In this document: in pieces, positions 3,690-28,771 of the stretch
How the letters are laid out: each line of letters opens with the position of its first letter
How positions within the stretch are numbered: position 1 is the stretch's first letter
Origin: Candidatus Kapaibacterium sp.
GTDB lineage: Bacteria; Bacteroidota; Ignavibacteria; Kapaibacteriales; UBA961
Direction of reading: 5' to 3'
Length of the DNA: 34,444 nucleotides
Assembly: GCA_017302855.1 (NCBI GenBank)
Contig: JAFLBY010000014.1
Span: 1 to 34,444, forward strand
The notes under the pieces: generated by a model
The model's input: only the letters and a program-made list of their open reading frames with translations
Told to the model about the DNA's origin: nothing
Databases searched by the model: none
Program-made: the position numbers and the translations under genes

Positions 3690-3818
3690 AATTTAAAGAC
3701 AAAGAATATTGACTTGCAAACAGAAGGATACATCGAAGAATGTAATGATGCTGATTTTGTATTCTTTGGCAGCACAATTTGGATGGAAAGCCAAAGTTTT
3801 GTAGTTTTGGGGGAATGA
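3690..3818 (+). pseudogene. possible decayed coding remnant ending in repeat copy B
   Basis: Between the receptor and the next gene an open stretch without start codon reads as a plausible protein tail (LQTEGYIEECNDADFVFFGS), then runs into the repeat. Adjacent frames contain similarly protein-like fragments (TDTDIFYLG just upstream), which suggests an old frameshifted gene. The evidence is only protein-like composition, so this is weak. Confidence 0.2.
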
Positions 3819-3823
3819 AAGGT
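3770..3823 (+). repeat. dispersed promoter-bearing repeat, copy B
   Basis: Shares the core from caatttggatgg through aaagttttgtagttttgg and ggaatgaaagg with the copies at 10783 and 11840. Left and right arms are not recognisable. It lies 36 bases before an orphan exported protein, as the island copies precede their own genes. Confidence 0.7.
3778..3809 (+). promoter_or_regulatory. Bacteroidota-type promoter in repeat copy B
   Basis: TTTG at 3778-3781, exactly 20 bases, then TAGTTTTG at 3802-3809; this matches the TTTG/TAnnTTTG consensus of Bacteroidota primary sigma factor promoters. It points at the gene starting at 3859. Confidence 0.6.
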
Positions 3824-3858
3824 GAATTGGGTTACGATGAGAAACTGATAACACTTCA

Positions 3859-10720: not shown

Positions 10721-10831
10721 TAAAGCACTATTCTTACTCTGGCATAGAGACATTCCCTTTGTTTATGTTTGCATGAATAGACAAAATTTTGTAGTTTTGA
10801 GGGAATGAAAGGTGTTTTACATATTGCGGGT
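10721..10831 (+). repeat. dispersed promoter-bearing repeat, copy C (C/E subtype)
   Basis: Aligns without gaps to 15574-15665 (copy E) over 92 bases, with about 14 mismatches counted by eye, starting at taaagc and running through the promoter core. A shortened right arm (tgttttacatattgcggg) resembles the gtgaatatggg arm of the D copies. It is the first repeat of the island, about 85 bases after the terminator. Bases 10636-10720 show nothing recognisable. Confidence 0.8.
10768..10799 (+). promoter_or_regulatory. Bacteroidota-type promoter in repeat copy C
   Basis: TTTG at 10768-10771, 20 bases, TAGTTTTG at 10792-10799. It points at the HEAT-like gene starting at 10910. Confidence 0.6.
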
Positions 10832-10909
10832 TCTACGGTCTTTACAGAATGAAAAACTCCTTTAGAACATCTATACATCTTGGCATATACGCAAATAGAA
10901 GTGAAAGAC

Positions 10910-11768: not shown

Positions 11769-11909
11769 ACTCTTCCCCAACTCATCGGTGATTGTTGAGA
11801 ACTATAAGTGGTATTGGGATGCTAACTTGAAGAATTGTGTTTGGGTGGATACACAAAGTTTTGTAGTTTTGAGGGAATGAAAGGCGCTTTGCATGAATAT
11901 GGGAGGGGT
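11769..11909 (+). repeat. dispersed promoter-bearing repeat, copy D1
   Basis: 141 bases that align without gaps to copy D2 (13288-13428), with about 17 mismatches by eye. It begins actcttcccc and ends gggaggggt; these two ends are partly complementary and could form the base of a long imperfect hairpin. Confidence 0.9.
11840..11871 (+). promoter_or_regulatory. Bacteroidota-type promoter in repeat copy D1
   Basis: TTTG at 11840-11843, 20 bases, TAGTTTTG at 11864-11871. It points at the interrupted lipoprotein gene at 11958. Confidence 0.6.
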
Positions 11910-13279: not shown

Positions 13280-13438
13280 CTTGGGTAACTCTTCCCCAAG
13301 TCATCGGTGATTGTTTAGAACTATAAGTCGTATTGGGATACTAACATGAAGAACTGTGTTTGGATGTACAGACAAAATTTTGTAGTTTTGAGGAAATGAA
13401 TTACGTTTTGCGTGAATATGGGAGGGGTAACCTTACAA
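13273..13438 (+). repeat. dispersed promoter-bearing repeat, copy D2, with CGCTAAC core
   Basis: The 141-base body (13288-13428) matches copy D1. It extends left into GCGCTAAC (13273-13280), which contains the stop codon of the preceding gene. GGTAACTCTTCCCC on the left is partly complementary to GGGAGGGGTAACC (13420-13432) on the right, giving an imperfect palindrome about 150 bases long, compatible with an attC-like site. Confidence 0.85.
13359..13390 (+). promoter_or_regulatory. Bacteroidota-type promoter in repeat copy D2
   Basis: TTTG at 13359-13362, 20 bases, TAGTTTTG at 13383-13390. It points at the gene starting at 13532. Confidence 0.6.
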
Positions 13439-15493: not shown

Positions 15494-15700
15494 GCCCCAA
15501 CTCAACAGTCATATTTAGAACAATGCGTGATAATGGGATTATGTGTGGGGTGGAAACCACAGACAAGAATCTCTAAAGCGATGTTTTTACTCCGGCATAG
15601 AAACATTTCCTTTGTTCATGTTTGGATGTACAGACAAAATTTTGTAGTTTTGAGGAAATGAATGCACTTTGCGTGAATATCGGAGTTAGCGGTAACCTTA
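15494..15700 (+). repeat. dispersed promoter-bearing repeat, copy E, with GTTAGCGG core
   Basis: Bases 15574-15665 match copy C; the left part (ccccaactca, tttagaac) resembles the D copies; the right arm (gcgtgaatatcgga) matches D2 and then contains GTTAGCGG (15685-15692) followed by taacctta, as in D2. GTTAGCGG is the exact reverse complement of CCGCTAAC found at the end of the next gene. Confidence 0.85.
15621..15652 (+). promoter_or_regulatory. Bacteroidota-type promoter in repeat copy E
   Basis: TTTG at 15621-15624, 20 bases, TAGTTTTG at 15645-15652. It points at the small gene starting at 15724. Its -7 box lies inside a longer open frame that begins at 15622, which argues against that upstream start. 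Confidence 0.6.
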
Positions 15701-17322: not shown

Positions 17323-20300
17323 TTATTGAACAATACATTTTATTTTTTCTGATGAATAGACGGTTTGTACGGTGATAAAATATATTCCGGCAGGTAATGA
17401 ACCGGGAACCGTTATTTGTTGCGATGTCGTCTGTGCAGTAAGCCATGGCGTAAGCATTATTGACTCTCCCATCAAATCCGTGACCGTAAAGCGCACCGGC
17501 GATGTTCCTTGTTTACTTCTGTATTCAAGCACTATGGAACGACTATCCTGCACGGTTTGCACAGTAGTTTCAATATAACCCACAGGTACGGGTATTGCCA
17601 CAAGACATCCATACACTATTGTTAATGAACCGGTTACGCGTTCAGTATTGACGGGATGGCGCGAAAAAACTTGATATTGATGAATGCGCAAAGGTGTATT
17701 ATTTTCCACATTGGTTAATGTATATCCTTCCACAAAAAATAAAGTATCCTGAGCGTGTACATCACTGTCTTTATTATGCAAAGTAAGGCGAATAGTATCT
17801 TTATTGATGGTGTATGGAATATTTATTTTTTCTGTGCCTTCATAGCGAAAAACATTTCTTACATTGAGCGAACGATGATTAATAAGCAATATAATATTCA
17901 CGGAATCAATTTCGGCTTCGGCAATGGCACCTTGTTGCCACAATGGTAATTGGACTGTGGTTGCATAATTTTCCGTGTGTTTGCGCATGGAAACCGTATG
18001 GTTATATTGAACATTCGGGATGGTATAAGTCATTGGAATAATTGCACTATCCTTACATTCTGATTGCACTTTTATGGTCATTTCAGCATTATATGTTCCA
18101 ACAACCGTAGCATACCATGCAATACGTATAGTTTCGGAAGCACCCGCAGCTAAAATATAGGGCGGTGGGCGCATTCCTATAATTGTACAATTATTGCCCG
18201 TTAATGTAATATCTGTAATTTCTCTGTCAATAACCGATGAATTAGTAATAATAACCGAATCAAAGACTTGTCTGTCGAGTGCTCCTCTTGGCGTGATGAG
18301 CGGCGACGGTCTTACAGTAAATTCCGGTTGAATTATTTCGCCATTTATGGAAAATGTGCCTTGTGTGGGACATACCAATGTTTTATACATAATTATTTCA
18401 TCCCAAGAACCGAGAGCGGATTGATTCGGCATTAATACTATTTCCGCATTAGCAACAGATTGTGGAGGCACAATAACCGTATCATTTTGCAATGATACGC
18501 CTTTTACCGGTTTAGAACGCTGAAATATGACAGTATCTTGCAATAAACCGCTATTAGTAAATGGGATAATAAATGATTTTTCCGCAGCACATATTTCATG
18601 TCTGCCCATTGGTATTTCTTGTATTGCCGTGGATGTTTGTGCCTTAAAAAATGACGATGTTAAAGCCACAGTTTGCGCCGTAGATGAGCGCAAAGAACGT
18701 AATCTGATTTCACCACTGTGATTTTGTTCATTTGTGGGAAAATATTGCACTTTAATAAATAATTTCTGATCTCCGGCTAATATATATGGTAATGTCGGCG
18801 GATCAATCAAAGAAAAATCCGGCGCGCCTTTTATTAAAGCCAATTCCGTAATTGTATCAGCCACAGCACTTTCATTGGAAATAGTAAATGTGGAATGAGC
18901 AATAGAAGGTGTGCATCGCTGCGGAGTAAATAATATTTCATTTGTCGAAAGTCCTATACCCGTCAAAATTGATTGTAATACAATAGGAACACATCGTGCG
19001 CCGACACATTCTTTTGTTGCCACAAAACATACTTCACCACGATATGTCATTTCTGTGTTTGGATTTACTTCAACAGTTGCCACATAATCTTGCCCGGGTG
19101 CAAGTAATAATGGCTTAGGAATATTCACCAAATTCCAGTCAGGACGATTAGGGTTCAGCGTGGCATCGGTAATTTCCGCCACAGCCGTGCCGGCATTGCG
19201 AATTGTTACGGTGCGTTTCGTGATTTTTCCCACCATCACAGTACCTTTTATGGTATCGGGTTGTGCTTGCAACACCACATTTTTGCCTATACATGACACA
19301 GGAATACGTATAAAATCGCCACAGGGTTGGAAACGAATTTCTACCGTATCCACATTAAGTCCAATATTTTCAGGTTTAAAAATAACTGTTATTTTAGCAG
19401 AATCGGCATTAGCTAATTGTTGCGGGGCGGGAAAACCCTCACGCCACAGCACTCGCACTTTACCAAGTTTGGTCCCAATATATGTCATTGTTGCTTGAGT
19501 TGTGCCTAAATTGCGGACGGTAAAAGTCCCTGTTTTTTCTTCGCCTATACAAATTTCAGGTCCTGTAACAGCAGGAATATTCGTAGAAATAAGCGGTCCT
19601 GCAAAATGCGCATCCACTTCTACAGAAAATGCTGTTTTATTACCCCGTTTTGTTGTCGAGTCATTACAGTTTATTTGCAAAATGGCTTTGCTTATTTTTG
19701 TTGCCGATGTCACGGCATAGCGAATTTTCAGCCATCCCTTATGTTTGGGCTGAATAATAGTTGTTCTGTCACCCTGTTTATTCCAACCGAGAATAGAAAA
19801 ATTCTGCGGATCGGTCGTGGACATAGTCACACCATAAATTGTTAATGGTGCATTCCCTGTATTTTCAATAGGAATAGAATCGGTGAGCATGGCACTACAT
19901 TGGGCTTTCATGGCAAATTTATCGGGGTGCACCACAATCGGCGAAATGCCATAAGCGCGTGCATTAACGATAAATTCACAAGAATTTACGGTGAGCACAT
20001 AGCGTGCAGCAATCCAACCTGTATCCACAGGATTTACACCAACAAACAGGCGCTCAGTTGTTGATGGCTGAATAATCAATGGCAAGGGAGTAATAAAAGA
20101 AAATTCCGGCGTACCCAATGTTTTTTGTGCTTTTTTTACTTGAACACTTTGCAATAAACCATTAGTGACAGCAATAGATTTTTGCGATATTTTACCGCAT
20201 GGTGCTTTATCAAAAACAATAATTGAATCGAGAGACTGCGCTGTAATACTTTCTGCTTTACCGGTGAGCGGAATAGAAAATACTGTTGGTGGCGAGCCGA

Positions 20301-21561
20301 CGGAAATCGTCATTATTGCTTCACGCAAGCCAATATCTTTGGGAGTAAATTTGACAATGAGGCGCACACTGTCGCAACCATTAATAGTAAATGGCGGTAT
20401 TGGTTGATGAATACTGAAATCAGCCGCATGGGTACCTGCTATAGTGACGGTTGCCAATTCCGGATGAAAAGATTGAAGTTTCACAAATACAGTATCATAA
20501 CTCACCGATGGGAAACAACGGTCGCCGAAATGTAAAGCCGTTTTGGATGTAGAACGATAAGGGCTACGCAAACGATAGATAGCGCCGTCGGCGGCAATCC
20601 AGCCGGTGGTATCATCACTAAACCACACATCATCGCAACTTGCTTTTATGCCACAATTGCGCAAAGCCCAGCTTTGGCCGCCATCGGAAGTATAATAAGC
20701 CCGTGAACCAACACCCACAGCCCAACCGCGCTGCGCATCCAATAAAAATGTGCCGAACATTGCCCCGCCACTGCTGAAATTATTCCATGTTGTGCCATCA
20801 TCGGTGCTGAAACGCATCCCTCCTGCATTGCCTGCGCCCGAACATTCCGTGCCTGCGGTCGGGATTAAGTATGAATTGTTTACCTTCGTAAATTCCTCAT
20901 GCCATATAGCAGTACCTGTCGGCGATTTTACTGACCATGTCACGCCACCATTGCTTGTTTGCCAAAGATAACCGCTGCTCATTGCCCATCCCGCCCCTGT
21001 GGCAGAAGTAAGAAACACATCACTCATTCCGGAACGGTCAACTCTCGTGGTATCGCGAAAAGCATTCCATGTTGCTCCGCCATTGGTTGTCCTGTAAAAA
21101 CTTCTGATATTATCAACACCGCAGCCGCCGCCTATCACCATACCCGTATCGGCTGTCGGGAAATGTGTTCCCCATAATGAATTGCCAGCACTTGCAGGAG
21201 TAATGCTCGACCATGTTGCTCCGCCATCGGTGCTCTTAAAAATACCGGCATTGCCGGAAGTGTAACCAATAGAAGTATTTACAAAATGAATGCTTTCAAG
21301 GTGATCATTATTGGATGGTGAATATGGCACTGTTGTTCCTTGCCATGTTGCCCCACCGTCTGTGGTTCGTATCACATGACCTTTTGCACCACATACCCAG
21401 CCGAATTGCGGATTCGACGGCAAAAAGTACACATCTAACCATAAAGTGGCATGATAAGGCGGTTGTAACGGAACGGCTTCCCAACGCTGCCCCATAAGCA
21501 TAGTGCATGATCCTATTATTGCAAAAACAACAAAATAGACAAGTGGTCGAATATGTTTCAT
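17323..21561 (-). CDS. large secreted protein: Asp-box propeller, choice-of-anchor-D repeats, T9SS sorting domain
   Basis: 1412 residues. A signal peptide (about residues 1-24) is followed by a BNR/YCF48-like propeller with about seven Asp-boxes (TTDGGATW, STDGGATW, TTNGGATW, STDDGTTW, TSDGGQSW) up to about residue 330. Residues about 340-1180 are tandem immunoglobulin-like modules of the choice-of-anchor-D/ASPM-SPD2-Hydin type, each with phrases such as PFTINGCDSVRLIVKFTP or FTVRNLGTTQATMTYIGT. The last 75 residues (VTDLMGESIMLTPW, LPAGIYFITVQT, ending KIKCIVQ) match a type A sorting domain of the type 9 secretion system, so it is likely exported through the outer membrane and attached to or shed from the surface. 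Its role may be adhesive or structural; no enzyme motif is visible. Confidence 0.9.
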   Translation of the reverse strand: MKHIRPLVYFVVFAIIGSCTMLMGQRWEAVPLQPPYHATLWLDVYFLPSNPQFGWVCGAKGHVIRTTDGGATWQGTTVPYSPSNNDHLESIHFVNTSIGYTSGNAGIFKSTDGGATWSSITPASAGNSLWGTHFPTADTGMVIGGGCGVDNIRSFYRTTNGGATWNAFRDTTRVDRSGMSDVFLTSATGAGWAMSSGYLWQTSNGGVTWSVKSPTGTAIWHEEFTKVNNSYLIPTAGTECSGAGNAGGMRFSTDDGTTWNNFSSGGAMFGTFLLDAQRGWAVGVGSRAYYTSDGGQSWALRNCGIKASCDDVWFSDDTTGWIAADGAIYRLRSPYRSTSKTALHFGDRCFPSVSYDTVFVKLQSFHPELATVTIAGTHAADFSIHQPIPPFTINGCDSVRLIVKFTPKDIGLREAIMTISVGSPPTVFSIPLTGKAESITAQSLDSIIVFDKAPCGKISQKSIAVTNGLLQSVQVKKAQKTLGTPEFSFITPLPLIIQPSTTERLFVGVNPVDTGWIAARYVLTVNSCEFIVNARAYGISPIVVHPDKFAMKAQCSAMLTDSIPIENTGNAPLTIYGVTMSTTDPQNFSILGWNKQGDRTTIIQPKHKGWLKIRYAVTSATKISKAILQINCNDSTTKRGNKTAFSVEVDAHFAGPLISTNIPAVTGPEICIGEEKTGTFTVRNLGTTQATMTYIGTKLGKVRVLWREGFPAPQQLANADSAKITVIFKPENIGLNVDTVEIRFQPCGDFIRIPVSCIGKNVVLQAQPDTIKGTVMVGKITKRTVTIRNAGTAVAEITDATLNPNRPDWNLVNIPKPLLLAPGQDYVATVEVNPNTEMTYRGEVCFVATKECVGARCVPIVLQSILTGIGLSTNEILFTPQRCTPSIAHSTFTISNESAVADTITELALIKGAPDFSLIDPPTLPYILAGDQKLFIKVQYFPTNEQNHSGEIRLRSLRSSTAQTVALTSSFFKAQTSTAIQEIPMGRHEICAAEKSFIIPFTNSGLLQDTVIFQRSKPVKGVSLQNDTVIVPPQSVANAEIVLMPNQSALGSWDEIIMYKTLVCPTQGTFSINGEIIQPEFTVRPSPLITPRGALDRQVFDSVIITNSSVIDREITDITLTGNNCTIIGMRPPPYILAAGASETIRIAWYATVVGTYNAEMTIKVQSECKDSAIIPMTYTIPNVQYNHTVSMRKHTENYATTVQLPLWQQGAIAEAEIDSVNIILLINHRSLNVRNVFRYEGTEKINIPYTINKDTIRLTLHNKDSDVHAQDTLFFVEGYTLTNVENNTPLRIHQYQVFSRHPVNTERVTGSLTIVYGCLVAIPVPVGYIETTVQTVQDSRSIVLEYRSKQGTSPVRFTVTDLMGESIMLTPWLTAQTTSQQITVPGSLPAGIYFITVQTVYSSEKIKCIVQ

Positions 21562-22277
21562 AAGCTCAAACCCTACTTTATATGGTTATATCAAGTGCTA
21601 TTTACTGAAAAGAATTGGCATTTCCAATACTTCCACAAAAAAAAATTGATATGAATGCAATGATGAGTACAAGTAATGAGTGCTTTTTGGTCAAAAATGT
21701 ATCAGTGTGAGCATTGATTTTTTTACCAAAGTTGAGCATATTACGATTTCATGTTTATGAACATTCCCCGCTATCAGAATAGTTGTTCATTCTAAAAAGA
21801 GGGTGGTGTGACTATGGCTTCTACCTTAGCTTATCACTCAAGCTCAAAAAGAAATCCGTACTATTTTTATCCTCAAAACGGCTATATTTACAAGCCGTCC
21901 CATTCTATGAATTCGATAGTAAAAAAATATCATGTTGTTCCGACAAAAAATGAAATAATAAGTGCCTGTATTGAAAGAATTTCCTCAATCCGACAATTCA
22001 TGTCATAATGGTATGCCCATTATTTGAAAAAGTTTTGCTAAGTTGCAGATAGTATAGTGCGAAGCCACGGTTCAATGATAGAGTATGATATACACTGATT
22101 GGATATTGGATGTTATAGTGGATAGAAGAATAGTAAAGAGCCGCGCCTACCGTGTACTGATTCCATGTTTCTATTGTTACAAGGAAAGATTGCCAAGATT
22201 CATAAGAATAGTACAAAAAACAATCTTTCATATATGCAAAACCAAGTTCTTCAACACTAATCCAAAGGAATAAAACT
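21562..22277. other. 716-base AT-rich gap without convincing gene
   Basis: It lies between the divergent 1412-residue gene and the lipoprotein gene, so it must contain both upstream regions. One plus-strand frame of 66 codons (21808-22008) starts with ATG but its product has no recognisable motif and no clear promoter; a minus-strand frame at its right edge mostly overlaps the lipoprotein gene. No dispersed-repeat copy, hairpin terminator or tRNA is seen. Confidence 0.4.
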
Positions 22278-22823
22278 ATGAAAAACATTAGTGCAATCCT
22301 CATTGTGTTCATCAGTATTCTTGCTCTGAACGCTTGTAATAATACTCCCGCATCCGTGATGGAAGATACATGGGTTGAAATTAAAGACACGACGCATTTG
22401 CCGGACATAGACATTTTAGATGGATATTGGGAAGAATTTAGAGGTATTATTGTCCGTAACAGTGAAGAATATAGTAGCATACCGAAACGAATTATAGATA
22501 CAACATATAGTAAAAATGTTTTCACGGGAACCTTGCCCGAAGCACCGGACTTTGCATCATATAGTTACCTTGCTTATACTTTTTTTGAAGTTGATATAAT
22601 TAAACATCCTCGATATAATCGTGCACCGCAGGTAAAATTGAGAAGGGTTTTAAGAAATGATAGTCAGAAAAAAATTCGCTATGAATTAGATGTTATGCAT
22701 GATCCTATTTTTGCATACCCTTTTGCTTTACAAGTGGTGCATCGGCAAAACTGGATTCGTATTCCGAAAGTACCGATTGATTATTCTTTTGAAATTGATA
22801 TTCTACTCATCCCATTCGACTAA
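22278..22823 (+). CDS. lipoprotein of unknown function
   Basis: 181 residues with a good lipobox (MKNISAILIVFISILALNAC, Cys20). The mature part is polar and probably beta-rich (RGIIVRNSEEYSSIPKRIID, YSYLAYTFFEVDIIKHPRYN) and ends with aromatic and hydrophobic strands (FEIDILLIPFD). No named family is recognised. An A/G-rich segment (ccaaaggaataaaact) precedes the ATG. The 3' part of its downstream spacer already resembles the spacers of the following tandem array, so it may be co-transcribed with those genes and act with them at the envelope. Confidence 0.7.
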   Translation: MKNISAILIVFISILALNACNNTPASVMEDTWVEIKDTTHLPDIDILDGYWEEFRGIIVRNSEEYSSIPKRIIDTTYSKNVFTGTLPEAPDFASYSYLAYTFFEVDIIKHPRYNRAPQVKLRRVLRNDSQKKIRYELDVMHDPIFAYPFALQVVHRQNWIRIPKVPIDYSFEIDILLIPFD

Positions 22824-22889: not shown

Positions 22890-23402
22890 ATGAAATTACT
22901 CTTTAGCATATTCTTTTTTTGTATTATGACATTGCCATGTCTTGCACAGGATTCGCTGAAAGCAGCATCAACTCTTTCATTCAAGCCATTAGTCGGTCTG
23001 GGGCTGCTTAATGGCGCAAGAGCAGGATTGCAAGTTCAATACAATGATATTATTGCAATTGAAGGTGGTGTGGGGATATTTATTCTTTCATTTCATGCAC
23101 TTTTTGCTCATGATTTTAAGAATGTGTATTGGCAACCTTCACATGGAATAATTGTGACACCTTTGGAAGATAAAAGACTTTCATTTTATCAATATACTAC
23201 ATATTATAAATTTAGCATTTTTAGCACGATAGAAAAATTTAGACCATTTATTCAGGTTGGAGTGGGGTGGTTAATTTCCATAGGAAAAAGCTCAAATCTT
23301 CGTATTTCTAGTGGAGTCGGTGGTAATGATTTATTGCCAATCTCACCAATTCTAACATTAGATTTTACTGTAATCTTCGACGGTGTTAATGTTCGTTTAT
23401 AA
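22890..23402 (+). CDS. tandem paralog 1: small exported, probably outer-membrane protein
   Basis: 170 residues. Signal peptide MKLLFSIFFFCIMTLPCLAQ. The block FKPLVGLGLLNGARAGLQVQ plus YNDIIAIEGGVGI (about 31-63) is nearly invariant in copies 1-4; the end (LTLDFTVIFDGVNVRL) is likewise constant. Alternating hydrophobic strands, glycine-rich turns and a terminal aromatic strand suggest a small beta-barrel or beta-sandwich in the outer membrane or periplasm. The centre (about 64-150) most resembles paralog 4 (HGIIVTPLEDKRLSF, EKFRPFIQVGVGWLISIGK). Function unknown. Confidence 0.8.
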   Translation: MKLLFSIFFFCIMTLPCLAQDSLKAASTLSFKPLVGLGLLNGARAGLQVQYNDIIAIEGGVGIFILSFHALFAHDFKNVYWQPSHGIIVTPLEDKRLSFYQYTTYYKFSIFSTIEKFRPFIQVGVGWLISIGKSSNLRISSGVGGNDLLPISPILTLDFTVIFDGVNVRL

Positions 23403-23500
23403 TAATGTAGAAAAGCATAAACTAAGTATGAACTCATAAAAAAAATTCTAATAATAACAAGATAAAACAAAATAAATGTTCACCTATACTCTCTATTTGC

Positions 23501-23977
23501 ATGAAATTACTCTTTAGCATATTCTTTTTTTGTGTTATGACATTGCCATGCTTTGCACAGGATTCGCTGAAAACAGCATCAACTCTTTCGTTCAAACCAT
23601 TAGTAGGTCTGGGTCTGCTTAATGGTGCAAGAGCAGGATTGCAAGTTCAATACAATGATATTATTGCAATTGAAGGTGGTGTGGGGATATTGAATAGGAG
23701 TATGTTTTCATACGGGGTTATCTTATCACCATTTGATGAAAACCGTCTTTCTTTTTTTTATTATAAGGGACATCATTATTATCAATTTTTTGACACTTTT
23801 GATGATAGCTATCAACAAATTGGAATGGGGTGGTTAATATCAGTTGGTGATACAGAAAAATTACGTGTATCTTTAGGTTCACAAACCGTTGATATAGAGA
23901 AAATTCTGTTCTTAGGTAAATTGTTATTAACATTAGATTTTACTGTAACATTCGACGGTGTTAAACTTCATTTGTAA
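23501..23977 (+). CDS. tandem paralog 2
   Basis: 158 residues with the shared signal peptide and the shared block up to about residue 63, differing from paralog 1 in only a few residues there. The centre is its own (LNRSMFSYGVILSPFDENRL, YYKGHHYYQFFDTFDDSYQQ) and the end returns to the common LTLDFTVTFDGVKLHL. The abrupt switch from near-identity to divergence around codon 64 suggests recombination or gene conversion rather than uniform drift. Confidence 0.8.
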   Translation: MKLLFSIFFFCVMTLPCFAQDSLKTASTLSFKPLVGLGLLNGARAGLQVQYNDIIAIEGGVGILNRSMFSYGVILSPFDENRLSFFYYKGHHYYQFFDTFDDSYQQIGMGWLISVGDTEKLRVSLGSQTVDIEKILFLGKLLLTLDFTVTFDGVKLHL

Positions 23978-24075
23978 TAATGTAGAAAAGCATAAACTAA
24001 GTATGAACTCATAAAAAAAATTCTAATAATAACAAGATAATACAAAATGAATATTCAACAATACTCTCTATTTGC

Positions 24076-24552
24076 ATGAAAGTACTCTTTAACATATTCT
24101 TTTTTTGTGTAATGGCATTGCCATGCTTTGCACAGGATTCGCTGAAAACAGCATCAACTCTTTCCTTCAAACCCTTACTTGGTTTGGGATTAATAAATGG
24201 AGCAAGAGGAGGATTACAAATTCAATATAACGATTTTATTGCCATTGAAAGTGGGTTAGGAATAATTGGTAAAAGTACTCTATCATACGGAGTTATAATA
24301 ACACCATTTGGTGAAAAAAGTCTATCATTTCATCTTTATGATACTTATTATTACAATGGTATGCTACAAACTTTGGCGAATGGGTTTTCCCAATTTGGCA
24401 TTGGATGGACATTTACCCTTGGTTACATAAAGAAATTACGTATATCCATAGGGCTAGGAAATTTTACAATTCCTCAAGAATGGCATCCTGGTCAACTAAT
24501 GCTAGCATTAGATTTTACTGTAATCTTCGACGGTGTTAATATTCGTTTGTAA
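24076..24552 (+). CDS. tandem paralog 3
   Basis: 158 residues. It is the most diverged of copies 1-4 in the constant block (MKVLFNIFFFCVMALPCFAQ, FKPLLGLGLINGARGGLQIQ) and shares the SYGVIITPFGEKSLSF style of centre with paralog 2, then LANGFSQFGIGWTFTLGYIK. The end is the common ALDFTVIFDGVNIRL. Same predicted export and beta-rich fold as its neighbours. Confidence 0.8.
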   Translation: MKVLFNIFFFCVMALPCFAQDSLKTASTLSFKPLLGLGLINGARGGLQIQYNDFIAIESGLGIIGKSTLSYGVIITPFGEKSLSFHLYDTYYYNGMLQTLANGFSQFGIGWTFTLGYIKKLRISIGLGNFTIPQEWHPGQLMLALDFTVIFDGVNIRL

Positions 24553-24651
24553 TAATGTAGAAAAGCATAAACTAAGTATGAATTCATAAAAAAATTCTAA
24601 TAATAACAAGATAATACAAAATAAATGTTCACCTATACTCTCTCCATTTGC

Positions 24652-25155
24652 ATGAAATTACTCTTTAGCATATTCTTTTTTTGTGTTATGACATTGCCAT
24701 GTCTTGCGCAGGATTCGCTGAAAACGGCATCAACTCTTTCATTCAAACCATTAGTCGGTCTGGGTCTGCTTAATGGTGCAAGAGGAGGATTGCAAATTCA
24801 ATACAATGATATTATTGCTATTGAAGGTGGGGCGGGGATATCTGTCTTTTCATTTAAGCACATTCTTGCTCAGGAGTTTACAAAGTTGAATTGGCTAATT
24901 TCTCATGGAATAATTGTGACACCACTTGAAGACAAACGACTTTCATTTCATCAATACATTACATACTATAGATTTATTCTTACAGAAAAATTTAGACCAT
25001 TTATTCAAGTTGGATTGGGATGGTTAATATCCATAGGGAAAATCTCAAATCTTCGTATTTCTAGCGGAATCGGTGGTAATGATTTACTGCCAATTTCACC
25101 AATTCTAACTTTAGATTTTACTGTAATCTTCGACGGTGTTAATGTTCGTTTATAA
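24652..25155 (+). CDS. tandem paralog 4
   Basis: 167 residues from ATG 24652; an upstream ATG at 24625 lies in the conserved spacer and is not used in the other copies. It is the closest relative of paralog 1 along its whole length (HGIIVTPLEDKRLSFHQYIT, EKFRPFIQVGLGWLISIGK, RISSGIGGNDLLPISPI), so those two represent one central type while paralogs 2 and 3 carry another. Confidence 0.8.
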   Translation: MKLLFSIFFFCVMTLPCLAQDSLKTASTLSFKPLVGLGLLNGARGGLQIQYNDIIAIEGGAGISVFSFKHILAQEFTKLNWLISHGIIVTPLEDKRLSFHQYITYYRFILTEKFRPFIQVGLGWLISIGKISNLRISSGIGGNDLLPISPILTLDFTVIFDGVNVRL

Positions 25156-25252
25156 TAATGTAGAAAAGCATAAACTAAGTATGAACTCATAAAAAAATTC
25201 TAATAATAACAAGATAATACAAAATAAACGTTCCACTATACTCTTAACTTGC

Positions 25253-25786
25253 ATGAAATTACTCTTTAGCATATTCTTTTTTTGTATTATGACATTGCCA
25301 TGTCTTGCACAGGATTCAACGAAAGTTCGGTCTCTTGATACTTTTGCAGTGAAGCCATTACTTGGCTTGGGATTAATAAATGGTGCAAGAGTAGGTGTGC
25401 AAGTACAATATGGCGATATTGCTGCTCTTGAAGTGGGTGGAGGAATTGATTTTCTTCCTGTCGCAACTATATTTTTCAGAGGTTACTCGGGGTTTCAGTA
25501 TTTGACACTTTCGCAAGCATTGATTCTTACTCCCTTTCCGGAAAAAAGACTTTCGCTGATTCTGTATCATGCTTATTTATCAGATAGAGATATTCCAAAT
25601 ATTCAACGTCATTGGCAATTTATGATTGGATGGTCAATACCTTTAGGTGAATTTACTCATTCTCGATTTTCTTTAGGTGGGTCAATATCTAATGAAAAAG
25701 AATATGATTTATATGGCTTATCTGCTAGTGATGGTATAACATTTGACTTTGTTATGACTTTCGATCATGCAAAAATTCGATTGTAA
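25253..25786 (+). CDS. tandem paralog 5 (most diverged)
   Basis: 177 residues. The signal peptide is identical to that of paralog 1, but divergence begins right after it (STKVRSLDTFAVKPLLGLGL, VGVQVQYGDIAALEVGGGID). The centre and end (HWQFMIGWSIPLGEFTHSRF, ITFDFVMTFDHAKIRL) keep the strand pattern but little identity. It is also the last copy, with an unrelated sequence downstream, so it may be the ancestral member from which the inner copies were amplified. Confidence 0.8.
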   Translation: MKLLFSIFFFCIMTLPCLAQDSTKVRSLDTFAVKPLLGLGLINGARVGVQVQYGDIAALEVGGGIDFLPVATIFFRGYSGFQYLTLSQALILTPFPEKRLSLILYHAYLSDRDIPNIQRHWQFMIGWSIPLGEFTHSRFSLGGSISNEKEYDLYGLSASDGITFDFVMTFDHAKIRL

Positions 25787-25864
25787 AAGACATACTTTTT
25801 AGTACTTACTATTATTATTTTTATCGGATATAGTTTTCTCATTTTTATCATACTGCATTTCTAA

Positions 25865-26031
25865 CATACACTTAGTTCTGCCCATCAACAATGGGTACAT
25901 CAATATATTGTTCAAGAAGCATATCGTTTTTTGCAAAACATGTCGGATCAATCCCTGCTTTAAAAAACTATGCAGGTCTTGATGGTAATCCCTTTTTTGG
26001 TGCAGGTCAGATATATTATATGGCGATTTGA
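25865..26031 (+). pseudogene. possible decayed gene fragment before the riboswitch
   Basis: One frame (25865-25963) reads SAHQQWVHQYIVQEAYRFLQ, which is protein-like and resembles the start of bacterial zinc-dependent phospholipase-C-like exported proteins (HQYxxxEAY). It ends at a TAA, and another frame continues with NYAGLDGNPFFGAGQIYYMA to a TGA at 26029. No start codon or intact frame exists. Identification is by eye from one short motif, so it is tentative. The rest of the 25787-26195 gap shows nothing else. Confidence 0.3.
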
Positions 26032-26199
26032 GAACAATGCAAGACTAACACCTGTTTTTTCAGACAGTACTACTCAATAGATGAAAAGCAATATCCTTGC
26101 TCTGAATTGTGTGTATCCAACAACTCAGCACTACGCCAAAACCTCTTCCAACAAGTTTTGGTAAGGTTACGTCATAATTTCTTCGTATTTTCGCAATAA

Positions 26200-26285
26200 C
26201 GTTAGAGGTGCCGGACACAATAGTGTCGGCTGAGATTATACTCTTGGAACCTGATCCGGTTAAGACCGGCGTAGGGAAACGGATG
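26200..26285 (+). promoter_or_regulatory. TPP riboswitch (THI element)
   Basis: The conserved aptamer elements are in order: GGTGCC (26207-26212), CTGAGA (26230-26235) after a GGACAC...GTGTC-type hairpin, GAACCTGATC (26247-26256), the CCGGT/ACCGG stem (26256-26260 with 26265-26269) and GTAGGGAA (26271-26278). This binds thiamin pyrophosphate and normally shuts off thiamin synthesis or uptake genes when TPP is abundant. It lies in the leader of the TonB-dependent receptor gene. Confidence 0.95.
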
Positions 26286-26323
26286 AAACGCTTAGCGTTA
26301 TCATAGCTCCAACCTACCTCTGC

Positions 26324-26351
26324 GGAACATCATTTTTGTTCCATTTTTTTT
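26324..26351 (+). terminator. riboswitch-controlled intrinsic terminator
   Basis: GGAACA (26324-26329) pairs with TGTTCC (26337-26342), 7-base loop, followed by A and eight T. It ends 11 bases before the receptor ATG. Upstream, CCTAC (26313-26317) can pair with GTAGG of the aptamer (26271-26275) and ACCTCT (26316-26321) with AGAGGT (26204-26209), a possible antiterminator when TPP is absent. Confidence 0.8.
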
Positions 26352-26362
26352 ACACATTTTTC

Positions 26363-28771
26363 ATGAAAACATTTCGACTCAGTGCATCTGCATTTTTGCT
26401 GCTCACTGCATTGCCATTCGTGGCATTATCACAAAAAAAGACTGTTACCGACAGCACTCCCCCAACAAAATCTTATAATGTACCAACAGTGACCGTCACA
26501 GCCACCCGAGCTACGGAAAGGCAATCGCCCGTACCTTTCACTGAAATTAACCGTGCGGAATTGCAGGAAAAACATACTGCTTTTGATATAGCCACTTTAT
26601 TGGCTTCCACGCCATCGGTCTATTTTTATTCCGATAATGGCAATAATATCGGTTATACCAATATTCGTGTGCGCGGCTTTGACCAAAGACGCGTGGCGGT
26701 GATGATAAATGGTGTACCGCAAAATGACCCTTCCGACCATAATGTCTATTGGATAAATTTTCCCGATATTGCATCCAATTTACAATCCGTGCAAGTGCAA
26801 CGTGGTGCAGGACTTATGAATTATGGCTCTGCTGCCATCGGCGGCAGTATAAATATGATAACTGCTAATTATTCCGATAAACGTTTTGTTACTATTTCCC
26901 AAGGATATGGTTTTCAAGAATTTGGTGTCAATGGAACAAAATATGTTCCCACAGTCAGCAAATATTCTTTTGAAGCGGCTTCCGGGTTGATAGATAAATA
27001 TGCATTTTATGGTCGTGTTTCTCGCATTAACTCGGCGGGATATCGCGATAAATCATGGGCTGAATTAGAGAGCTTTTTTTTGAGTGCAGCCCGCTTTGAT
27101 GATTCGCATACATTACAAGTAAATGTTTTTGGCGGTCCAATCGCTGACGGATTGGCATATATCGGATTACCCAAATCATTTATCGGCGACCTCGGTTTAC
27201 GTCGTACCAATTTTAATTATTGGGAATATGACAGTGACTCACTTGCAGTCGGAAAACAAATAGTCGGTTTTGGTTCGCCCACACGCCAACAAGAAATAGA
27301 GAATTTTTCTCAACCACATTATGAAATTCTCTCCGATTGGACGCTGTCAGAAAATGTTTCATTAAAAACAACAGCTTTTTACTATACCGGTGATGGTTTT
27401 TTTGATTTTGATGCTTCATGGGCGGATAAAGATATGTTATTATTGACACCCGAATATGGTTTTCCCGATAATAGCGCTGTTTCAGGTACAATTTTTAAAG
27501 CATTCGTTGGCAATAGACATGGCGGCATTGTGCCTCGTTTACTTTGGAAACATAATCAAGGCGAATTATCTGTCGGTGCGGAATTACGCATACATCGTTC
27601 CGAACATTGGGGAAAAATCAATTTTGCAGAAGGTTTACCTGCAAATTACAATCCCGAGTTTCGTGTCTATGAATATAATGGTGAACGTGATATATTTTCA
27701 TTATTCGCACGTGAGCAATATTATCTGCAACCCAATATTATGCTCAATATTGAAGGACAAATAGTTCATCATCGTTATACTATTGCCAATGAAAAAAAAG
27801 GCGGGCAATTTGTTGAATACTCAACAGATAATGGCATAGTAGGAAAAAATGGCGGTGATATTTTTACCGTCAATTATCTGTTTTTTAATCCTCGTTTGGG
27901 TGTTCATTGGAATATTGATGAGCAATGGAGCGGCTTTTTTTCTTTGGCACTCACATCACGCGAACCTCGTATGAATAATTTATATAATGCAAGTGAGCGT
28001 TGGTCAAGCGGTGCAATTCCTTTATTCCAGCAAAATAATAATGGTAATTTTGATTTTTCTCGTCCATTGGTAAAACCTGAACGTATGTTGGACATAGAAA
28101 TAGGCGGCTCATTTACCGATGGTATTATCAAAGCTAATATGACGGGCTATTGGATGGAATTTAGCAATGAATTAGTCAGAAGCGGTCAATTAGATATTTT
28201 CGGCGCTCCTCGTGACGGCAATGCACCCCGCACACGTCATGTGGGTCTGGAGGCAGATATAGCGGCTGTTATTTTCACTACGGATAATAGCGCACTTACC
28301 ATCGGAGGCAATGCCAATATCAGTACTAATACCATTATTGATATGACCTATTTTACGAATATTAATGACAGTACAACACGTGGCATCTCATTAAATGGTA
28401 ATTCGATTGCGGGATTTCCGGATTTTCTGTCGGGTATGTTTGCCCAATATCGTTTAGGCAATCTTTCATGGGCAGTGACCATGCGCCATGTTCGTGGTAT
28501 CAGAACAGATAATTTTGGCGATAAAATATTAGAAATTCGTGCCATAAATCCGTCAGCAATACCGTATCTCGATAATCGTTTGGATGCTTACACGGTATTC
28601 AATACAGATATTGCTTATGAATTACCGCAGTTTTTATCATTTGAATCATTGCGTTTGCGTTTACAAGTCAATAATATTGCTAATGCACTCTATGCCGCAG
28701 GCGGTGAAGGTGGTCAATTTTTTCCTGCGGCGGAACGTAATATGTATTTTGGCATAGATGTAAATTTGTAA
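26363..28771 (+). CDS. TonB-dependent receptor, predicted thiamin transporter of the outer membrane
   Basis: About 802 residues from ATG 26363; the upstream in-frame TTG at 26336 lies inside the terminator hairpin and is rejected. Signal peptide MKTFRLSASAFLLLTALPFVALS, TonB-box region (TVTVTATRATERQSPVPF), plug (STPSVYFYSDNGNNIGYTNI, RVRGFDQRRVAVMINGVPQN, GSAAIGGSINMIT), then a long barrel ending FPAAERNMYFGIDVNL. There is no carboxypeptidase-like domain. A TPP riboswitch directly upstream makes thiamin or a thiamin precursor the likely ligand; TPP-regulated receptors of this kind are known from comparative genomics of Bacteroidota. No inner-membrane thiamin permease or thi biosynthesis gene is in the window. 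A terminator follows. Confidence 0.92.
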   Translation: MKTFRLSASAFLLLTALPFVALSQKKTVTDSTPPTKSYNVPTVTVTATRATERQSPVPFTEINRAELQEKHTAFDIATLLASTPSVYFYSDNGNNIGYTNIRVRGFDQRRVAVMINGVPQNDPSDHNVYWINFPDIASNLQSVQVQRGAGLMNYGSAAIGGSINMITANYSDKRFVTISQGYGFQEFGVNGTKYVPTVSKYSFEAASGLIDKYAFYGRVSRINSAGYRDKSWAELESFFLSAARFDDSHTLQVNVFGGPIADGLAYIGLPKSFIGDLGLRRTNFNYWEYDSDSLAVGKQIVGFGSPTRQQEIENFSQPHYEILSDWTLSENVSLKTTAFYYTGDGFFDFDASWADKDMLLLTPEYGFPDNSAVSGTIFKAFVGNRHGGIVPRLLWKHNQGELSVGAELRIHRSEHWGKINFAEGLPANYNPEFRVYEYNGERDIFSLFAREQYYLQPNIMLNIEGQIVHHRYTIANEKKGGQFVEYSTDNGIVGKNGGDIFTVNYLFFNPRLGVHWNIDEQWSGFFSLALTSREPRMNNLYNASERWSSGAIPLFQQNNNGNFDFSRPLVKPERMLDIEIGGSFTDGIIKANMTGYWMEFSNELVRSGQLDIFGAPRDGNAPRTRHVGLEADIAAVIFTTDNSALTIGGNANISTNTIIDMTYFTNINDSTTRGISLNGNSIAGFPDFLSGMFAQYRLGNLSWAVTMRHVRGIRTDNFGDKILEIRAINPSAIPYLDNRLDAYTVFNTDIAYELPQFLSFESLRLRLQVNNIANALYAAGGEGGQFFPAAERNMYFGIDVNL

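Follow-up and report, generated by a model that had tools for sequence, protein, structure and literature searches.

A tandem array of predicted outer-membrane barrel genes with constant ends and variable centres in uncultured Ignavibacteria

Introduction

Outer-membrane barrel families that recombine and vary in their loops have been described chiefly in host-associated pathogens and symbionts. The window analysed here, a stretch of 34,444 nucleotides that makes up contig C46 of a Candidatus Kapaibacterium genome (3.58 Mb, 298 contigs), raises the question of whether a presumably free-living lineage keeps a family of this kind. It holds five similar small genes in a row, for which we found no published description in the open-access literature. 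An original prediction, made from the DNA alone, had described them as a diversifying reservoir of envelope proteins with constant ends and swapped centres, shaped by gene conversion.

Results

Organization of the array

The array consists of five intact tandem genes on the same strand (22890-25786), coding for 170, 158, 158, 167 and 177 aminoacids (Table 1). All five have signal peptides, and the predicted row of small exported proteins is thus present. Each ORF is complete and preceded by a 5' flank of its own, similar among the copies, and in the repeat search the copies lie 575-611 bp apart. For c4 we used the homologous start at 24652; the listed ORF begins at 24625. Beyond the array, the same genome has partial genes on contigs C286 and C141, and the predicted lipoprotein LP181 is co-duplicated with the barrel genes. 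Scans for sigma-70 promoters and terminators performed no better here than on shuffled sequence.

Table 1. Features of the array and its immediate surroundings in the window.
Feature	Position	Strand	Remarks
Remnant of first ~50 codons of P547 (547-aa)	22085..22249	+	tblastn 42% over 55 aa, E 7e-7
LP181, predicted lipoprotein	22278..22823	+	Lipobox LNAC assigned by eye; C286 has a 95% identical paralogue
c1 barrel gene (predicted)	22890..23402	+	Centre class A, ~23076-23348; DNA identical to UBA2373 orthologue; AF2 model
Constant block c1/c2	23349..23686	+	c1 3' end, spacer and c2 5' block
c2 barrel gene (predicted)	23501..23977	+	Centre class B, ~23687-23923; short loop 2; AF2 model with 8 main strands
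Constant block c2/c3	23924..24261	+	c2-to-c3 switch of UBA2373 a2 at end of 5' block
c3 barrel gene (predicted)	24076..24552	+	Centre class C, ~24262-24498; 5' block partly c5-like
Constant block c3/c4	24499..24837	+	
c4 barrel gene (predicted)	24652..25155	+	Centre class A', ~24838-25101
Constant block c4/c5	25102..25318	+	Stops soon after c5 signal peptide
c5 barrel gene (predicted)	25253..25786	+	Most diverged copy; class E; distinct 3' end (array end)
Decayed remnant of T708 N-terminus	25835..26013	+	tblastn E 9e-15; DNA 86% to C141

In terms of family assignment, the window copies have no family in Pfam or NCBIfam, in line with the prediction of an unrecognised family, and the Pfam domain OMP_b-brl (PF13505) does not match them. 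One relative's protein reaches 19.9 bits against this domain (E 9e-4), below the gathering cutoff of 28.7. A sequence profile search of the PDB also gave no family for the window copies, and no Opa. The barrel family is present in 5 of the 14 genomes of its taxonomic family; profile searches across the class (294 genomes) and the order (123 genomes) returned nothing beyond these five genomes, apart from two marginal matches, and one scan of viral contigs returned no relative.

Constant blocks and breakpoints

The unit of repetition is best seen as a constant block of ~335 bp that spans one gene end, the spacer and the next gene start, and that alternates with the variable centres. It is composed of the last ~48 nt of a gene, a spacer of ~98 nt and the first ~190 nt of the following gene, in a constant frame. 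The first ~180 bases had been described as near-identical in copies 1-4. This holds for c1, c2 and c4, which are ~90-98% identical in DNA over the 5' block (codons 1-62), and fails for c3, which over codons ~33-62 is 72-88% identical to the other copies and partly c5-like. The likeness of c5 to the other copies is limited to the upstream region and the signal-peptide stretch. The 3' blocks of c1-c4 (last ~48 nt) are 88-100% identical, as anticipated. The four spacers, described as identical, differ slightly (91-95% identity).

An abrupt boundary near codon 64 had also been foreseen, and the breakpoint test bears it out. The maximum chi-square at codon 64 is 46 for c1/c2 and 75 for c2/c4, with p=2e-4, which is the floor of 5000 permutations. 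For c1/c2, dS rises from 0.15 in codons 1-62 to 1.43 in codons 81-153. Because synonymous sites also change at the boundary, purifying selection on the signal peptide is insufficient to explain the constant ends, and recombination, not constraint alone, must have shaped the limit between constant and variable parts. Since the constant block spans the spacer, unequal crossing-over is indicated in addition to the proposed gene conversion.

We also weighed invertible or site-specific cassettes and rejected them: the repeat search found no inverted repeats at the array, and the breakpoints lie inside homologous blocks.

Comparison with a sister genome

A scan of genome contigs gave only one near relative for comparison, the metagenome-assembled genome Ignavibacteria bacterium UBA2373. 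The array is carried by only these two closely related genomes, of which at least one, and probably both, are metagenome assemblies. In UBA2373 the array sits in the same place, within a 121-kb contig, and has three copies (a1, a2, a3) against the five of the window. Except at 19397-20896, a divergent stretch, and at the far end beyond 30053, most of the flanking DNA agrees at 94-100% in the two genomes. A BNR/choice-of-anchor protein on the minus strand (17323-21561) is 79-92% identical to UBA2373 in residues ~200-700 and 97-100% outside them, which marks local replacement of a segment.

As for the copies themselves, a1 is identical to c1 across gene and flanks, and c5 is nearly identical in both genomes. 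The 100% identity of c1 was discarded as evidence of recent transfer, because an identity of 98-100% extends over much of the DNA around it. The other two copies are mosaics. Copy a2 combines the 5' block of c2 (27/28 informative sites) with the centre of c3 (109/110), and a3 the upstream region of c4 (6/6 sites) with the body of c5 (237/246), each with p=1e-4, the permutation floor. Both carry private substitutions, and the junction of a2 is mixed. An economical reading is that the ancestor had five copies and that UBA2373 would have lost two units by crossing-over in the constant 5' blocks, each loss leaving an intact hybrid gene. Neither copy number nor centres are thus fixed between the two near-identical genomes (five copies against three, with mosaics), and the invariance that would have refuted the original prediction was not seen.

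Predicted structure and position of the variation

AlphaFold2 was run with 13 sequences from the window and related loci, and c1 and c2 were folded as representatives. Both models have a signal-peptide helix followed by eight main strands (c1: pLDDT 76, pTM 0.64; c2: pLDDT 76.5), and in c2 loop 2 is just short. These models fit the OmpA/OmpX-like fold, in which eight antiparallel strands behind a signal peptide close into a barrel. Foldseek matched the two models to transmembrane barrels (designed barrels, Ail, OmpA, OmpX, OprF, NspA and Opa60), with best E values of 1e-4 to 1e-2; the TM-scores to solved barrels are ~0.3-0.6 and model confidence is moderate. These results indicate that the array proteins are probably eight-stranded outer-membrane beta-barrels, similar to OmpA, OmpX, Ail and Opa60.

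By the usual rule for such barrels, which is established knowledge and is stated in PMC2843615 as well, both termini are periplasmic. Taking both ends as periplasmic, the codon 64 boundary presumably corresponds to the entrance of extracellular loop 2. Within the centre, identity is 20% in the presumed extracellular loops, 46% in the periplasmic turns and 42% in the strands. Gapped pairs number 94 in loops and 66 in strand-labelled columns (mostly beside loops), with none in periplasmic turns. Of 89 circular shifts applied to the structural labels, 8 matched the loop contrast. On these models, identity is lowest and length variation highest in the presumed extracellular loops, and the outcome that would have refuted the original prediction, variable residues buried in the core, was not seen.

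Centre classes and selection

The original prediction separated the centres into two unrelated-looking types, copies 1 and 4 against 2 and 3. We found instead homologous centres that have diverged within a single fold and fall into four classes (c1/c4, c2, c3 and c5). Invariant in all five copies are S84, P91, S98, Y102, Q122, G126-W127, G132, R138, S140, G142 and D158, and c1 and c2 have the same predicted fold. In codons 81-153, dS is 0.41 for c1/c4, which form one class (A/A'), and between classes it is 1.43 (c1/c2), 1.00 (c2/c3), 1.67 (c3/c4) and 1.38 (c1/c5); in codons 1-62 the same five pairs have dS of 0.15-0.72. A short loop 2 is common to c2 and c3, but between their centres dS is ~1.0 and dN ~0.55, which places the two copies in separate classes.

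Within a class, purifying selection is seen in the centre (c3/a2: dS 0.08, dN 0.02; c1/b, a dispersed copy of UBA2373: dS 0.14, dN 0.02). There is therefore no hypermutation, and this pattern of substitutions marks the centres as stable, functional proteins. Between c1 and c4, the ratio of nonsynonymous to synonymous change is 18.5:2.5 in loop 2 and 10:16 downstream (p=6e-4), and dN in loop 2 is not significantly above dS (p=0.17). This hints, weakly, at diversifying selection on the array. The word "diversifying" is thus backed by the concentration of nonsynonymous change in loop 2, and not by a significant excess of dN.

Dispersed copies and probable origin of the array

UBA2373 has two further copies outside the array. 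Copy b lies between a 544-aa protein and a 718-aa protein with a T9SS tail, and copy d beside an enoyl-CoA hydratase-like gene. Codons 63-153 of c4 are identical to those of d (dS=0, dN=0). In the window's genome, the place matching d has other DNA and lacks the copy, with synteny breaking at the neighbouring gene.

Two parts of a class-A' copy lie at the ends of contigs C286 and C141, and the 3' flank and T708 gene behind them are those found at b; we infer that the two parts join into one gene. If they do, the dispersed copy upstream of T708 appears to be of class A in UBA2373 and of class A' in the window's genome. At other loci, P547 precedes the barrel gene and T708 (708-aa, T9SS-tailed) comes after it. 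A genome of genus g4 has a 524-aa protein, a barrel and a T9SS-tailed 702-aa protein in the same order; because the order recurs there with a single barrel copy, [5xx-aa]-[barrel]-[T70x] is probably the ancestral setting.

Remnants of both neighbours flank the array (Table 1), and 22027-22157 is 92% identical in DNA to C286. In the relatives checked, no array was found beside the TonB-receptor gene with a TPP riboswitch. For these two reasons, a segment was probably copied to the window site, where its neighbours decayed and the barrel gene multiplied. The source would be the [P547]-[barrel]-[T708] locus, copied next to the TonB-receptor gene, losing most flanking genes and then expanding.

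Some further observations concern these neighbours and relatives. In T708/T718 beside the barrel gene (L009 176-2302, L029 399-2555), residues ~241-390 have 56-89% DNA identity and the rest mostly 93-100%. The bodies of P547/P544 (L010 3055-4698, L029 3130-4764) are near-identical, with the C-terminal ~125 residues replaced (56-84% DNA identity). Another locus of genus g4 has a tandem pair of barrel relatives (L033 8959-10233, L032 6806-8097), one copy with stops or frameshifts. A truncated barrel copy at L009 2463-2888 has yet another centre start and runs into the region adjoining the secA 3' end.

Discussion

We read the array, with moderate confidence, as a recombining multigene family of small outer-membrane barrels whose benefit would lie in variation. 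The layout, the mosaics, the copy-number difference and a centre common to dispersed loci are all established at the level of DNA. On the models, the 5' block would cover the signal peptide and strands 1-3; strands 4-7 and loops 2-4 would fall in the centre, and strand 8 in the 3' block. Homologous recombination between constant blocks, presumably of the RecA type, would delete, duplicate or replace a centre, and the gene would stay whole and in frame because these blocks keep a constant frame. The genome would then hold several barrels with differing exposed loops, some repeated at dispersed sites, and the set would change over short evolutionary times. The benefit may lie in a standing variation among exposed loops, useful against phages, predators or changing partners, and selection for diversity is plausible. 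For this lineage, phages, predators or shifting binding partners seem more natural agents than vertebrate immunity. It is a tentative proposal, though a real possibility, that this is a surface-variation system of the Opa kind in presumably free-living, uncultured Ignavibacteria, in which each crossover in a spacer-centred constant block of the tandem array gives an intact, in-frame barrel carrying a new set of loops; phage or predator pressure, and not host immunity, would maintain it.

Tandem duplication with birth-and-death is the main rival. The copies would be paralogues with specialised roles, for example as partners of the T9SS-exported proteins next to them, and recombination between neighbours would equalise their ends without any selection for diversity. 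Purifying selection within each class fits this account, as do the stability of the main copies (c1 identical and c5 nearly identical in both genomes) and the recurrence in another genus of a single barrel gene beside a T9SS-tailed protein; moreover, recombination of tandem repeats requires no selection. However, identity is lowest and length variation highest in the presumed exposed loops, the aminoacid changes between c1 and c4 concentrate in loop 2, and the copy next to T708 appears to differ in its centre between the two genomes, which speaks against its having a fixed partner. We consider this account rather doubtful.

The variation might also be of the silent-cassette type, with one expressed gene taking centres from silent copies. 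Conserved 5' and 3' blocks around a variable centre are the msp2/p44 layout (PMC11946796), and a truncated copy is present on C141. However, the five array copies and the complete UBA2373 copies are intact, with signal peptides and similar 5' flanks of their own, and neither a unique expression site nor a preferred recipient was seen among them. A silent-cassette system is very improbable, and the likeness to antigenic-variation loci that had been drawn is not supported as regards a silent store. Equally improbable is that the mosaics and the copy-number change are repeat-assembly artefacts of metagenome assemblies. Both genomes are fragmented, and C141 and C286 end inside copies, but the UBA2373 array lies inside its long contig, a2 and a3 have private substitutions, the junction of a2 is mixed and not a clean k-mer join, and c4-type upstream sequence is independently present in UBA2373.

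Among known systems, and on our preferred reading of a recombining family of complete barrel genes, the array stands closer to Opa or to Ehrlichia P28/OMP-1 than to silent-cassette systems. Neisseria Opa has up to 11 loci (PMC10327513). The likeness lies in several complete paralogous genes for eight-stranded outer-membrane barrels (predicted here), whose variable loops are reshuffled by recombination; for the array, exposure of the loops is deduced from topology. In contrast to Opa, the copies here are mostly in one tandem array, have no known host or receptor, and show no detectable sequence relation, only similarity of fold (the Foldseek match to Opa60). No pentanucleotide phase-variation repeat of the Opa type is obvious in the signal-peptide region of the array copies; a T7 tract is constant in all copies, and immediately upstream of c4, a3 and d there is an indel of a CT unit (two genomes only).

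Ehrlichia P28/OMP-1 genes are complete, tandem outer-membrane protein genes whose copy number is 14-23 between species (PMC7789307). The array shares with them tandem complete genes and a copy number that differs between relatives, as a way of working and not as homology. The Ehrlichia array is larger and no sequence relation was found; the striking feature here is the constant, spacer-centred block with near-identical ends. In Anaplasma MSP2/P44, conserved 5' and 3' blocks frame a variable region in the middle, and the 5' block is a recombination hotspot (PMC11946796); the layout is thus alike. It differs in feeding one expression site from ~100 silent copies, whereas each gene of the array is complete and preceded by a 5' flank of its own. 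Finally, in the eight-stranded barrel of Wolbachia WSP, recombination reshuffles four hypervariable loops, and the chimeras were ascribed to foreign DNA and not to exchange within the genome (PMC2843615). WSP shows this loop-centred reshuffling in a single gene. In the array a similar focus is suggested by the 20% identity of the loops against 42-46% elsewhere, a contrast that 8 of the 89 label shifts equalled, and the variation is kept in one genome as tandem and dispersed paralogues. As far as tested, the array family does not appear to be a member of Opa, P28/OMP-1, MSP2/P44 or WSP by sequence.

If the reading is true, it would suggest that such families can also be driven by phage or predator pressure, here in an uncultured lineage that is not known to infect any host. 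The mosaic evidence is direct, as it comes from two near-identical genomes, and the array offers a clear, small test case in which recombinant junctions can be counted in environmental long reads.

Other features of the window

A TPP riboswitch (26194-26294) is found directly upstream of the TonB-dependent receptor gene (26336-28771), in a region conserved in relatives. Lastly, a dispersed repeat of ~65 bp with the core TTTTGTAGTTTTGAGGGAATGAA occurs at 3778-3842, 10768-10832, 11840-11904, 13359-13423 and 15621-15685. It includes a TAnnTTTG-like element of the kind typical of Bacteroidota promoters.
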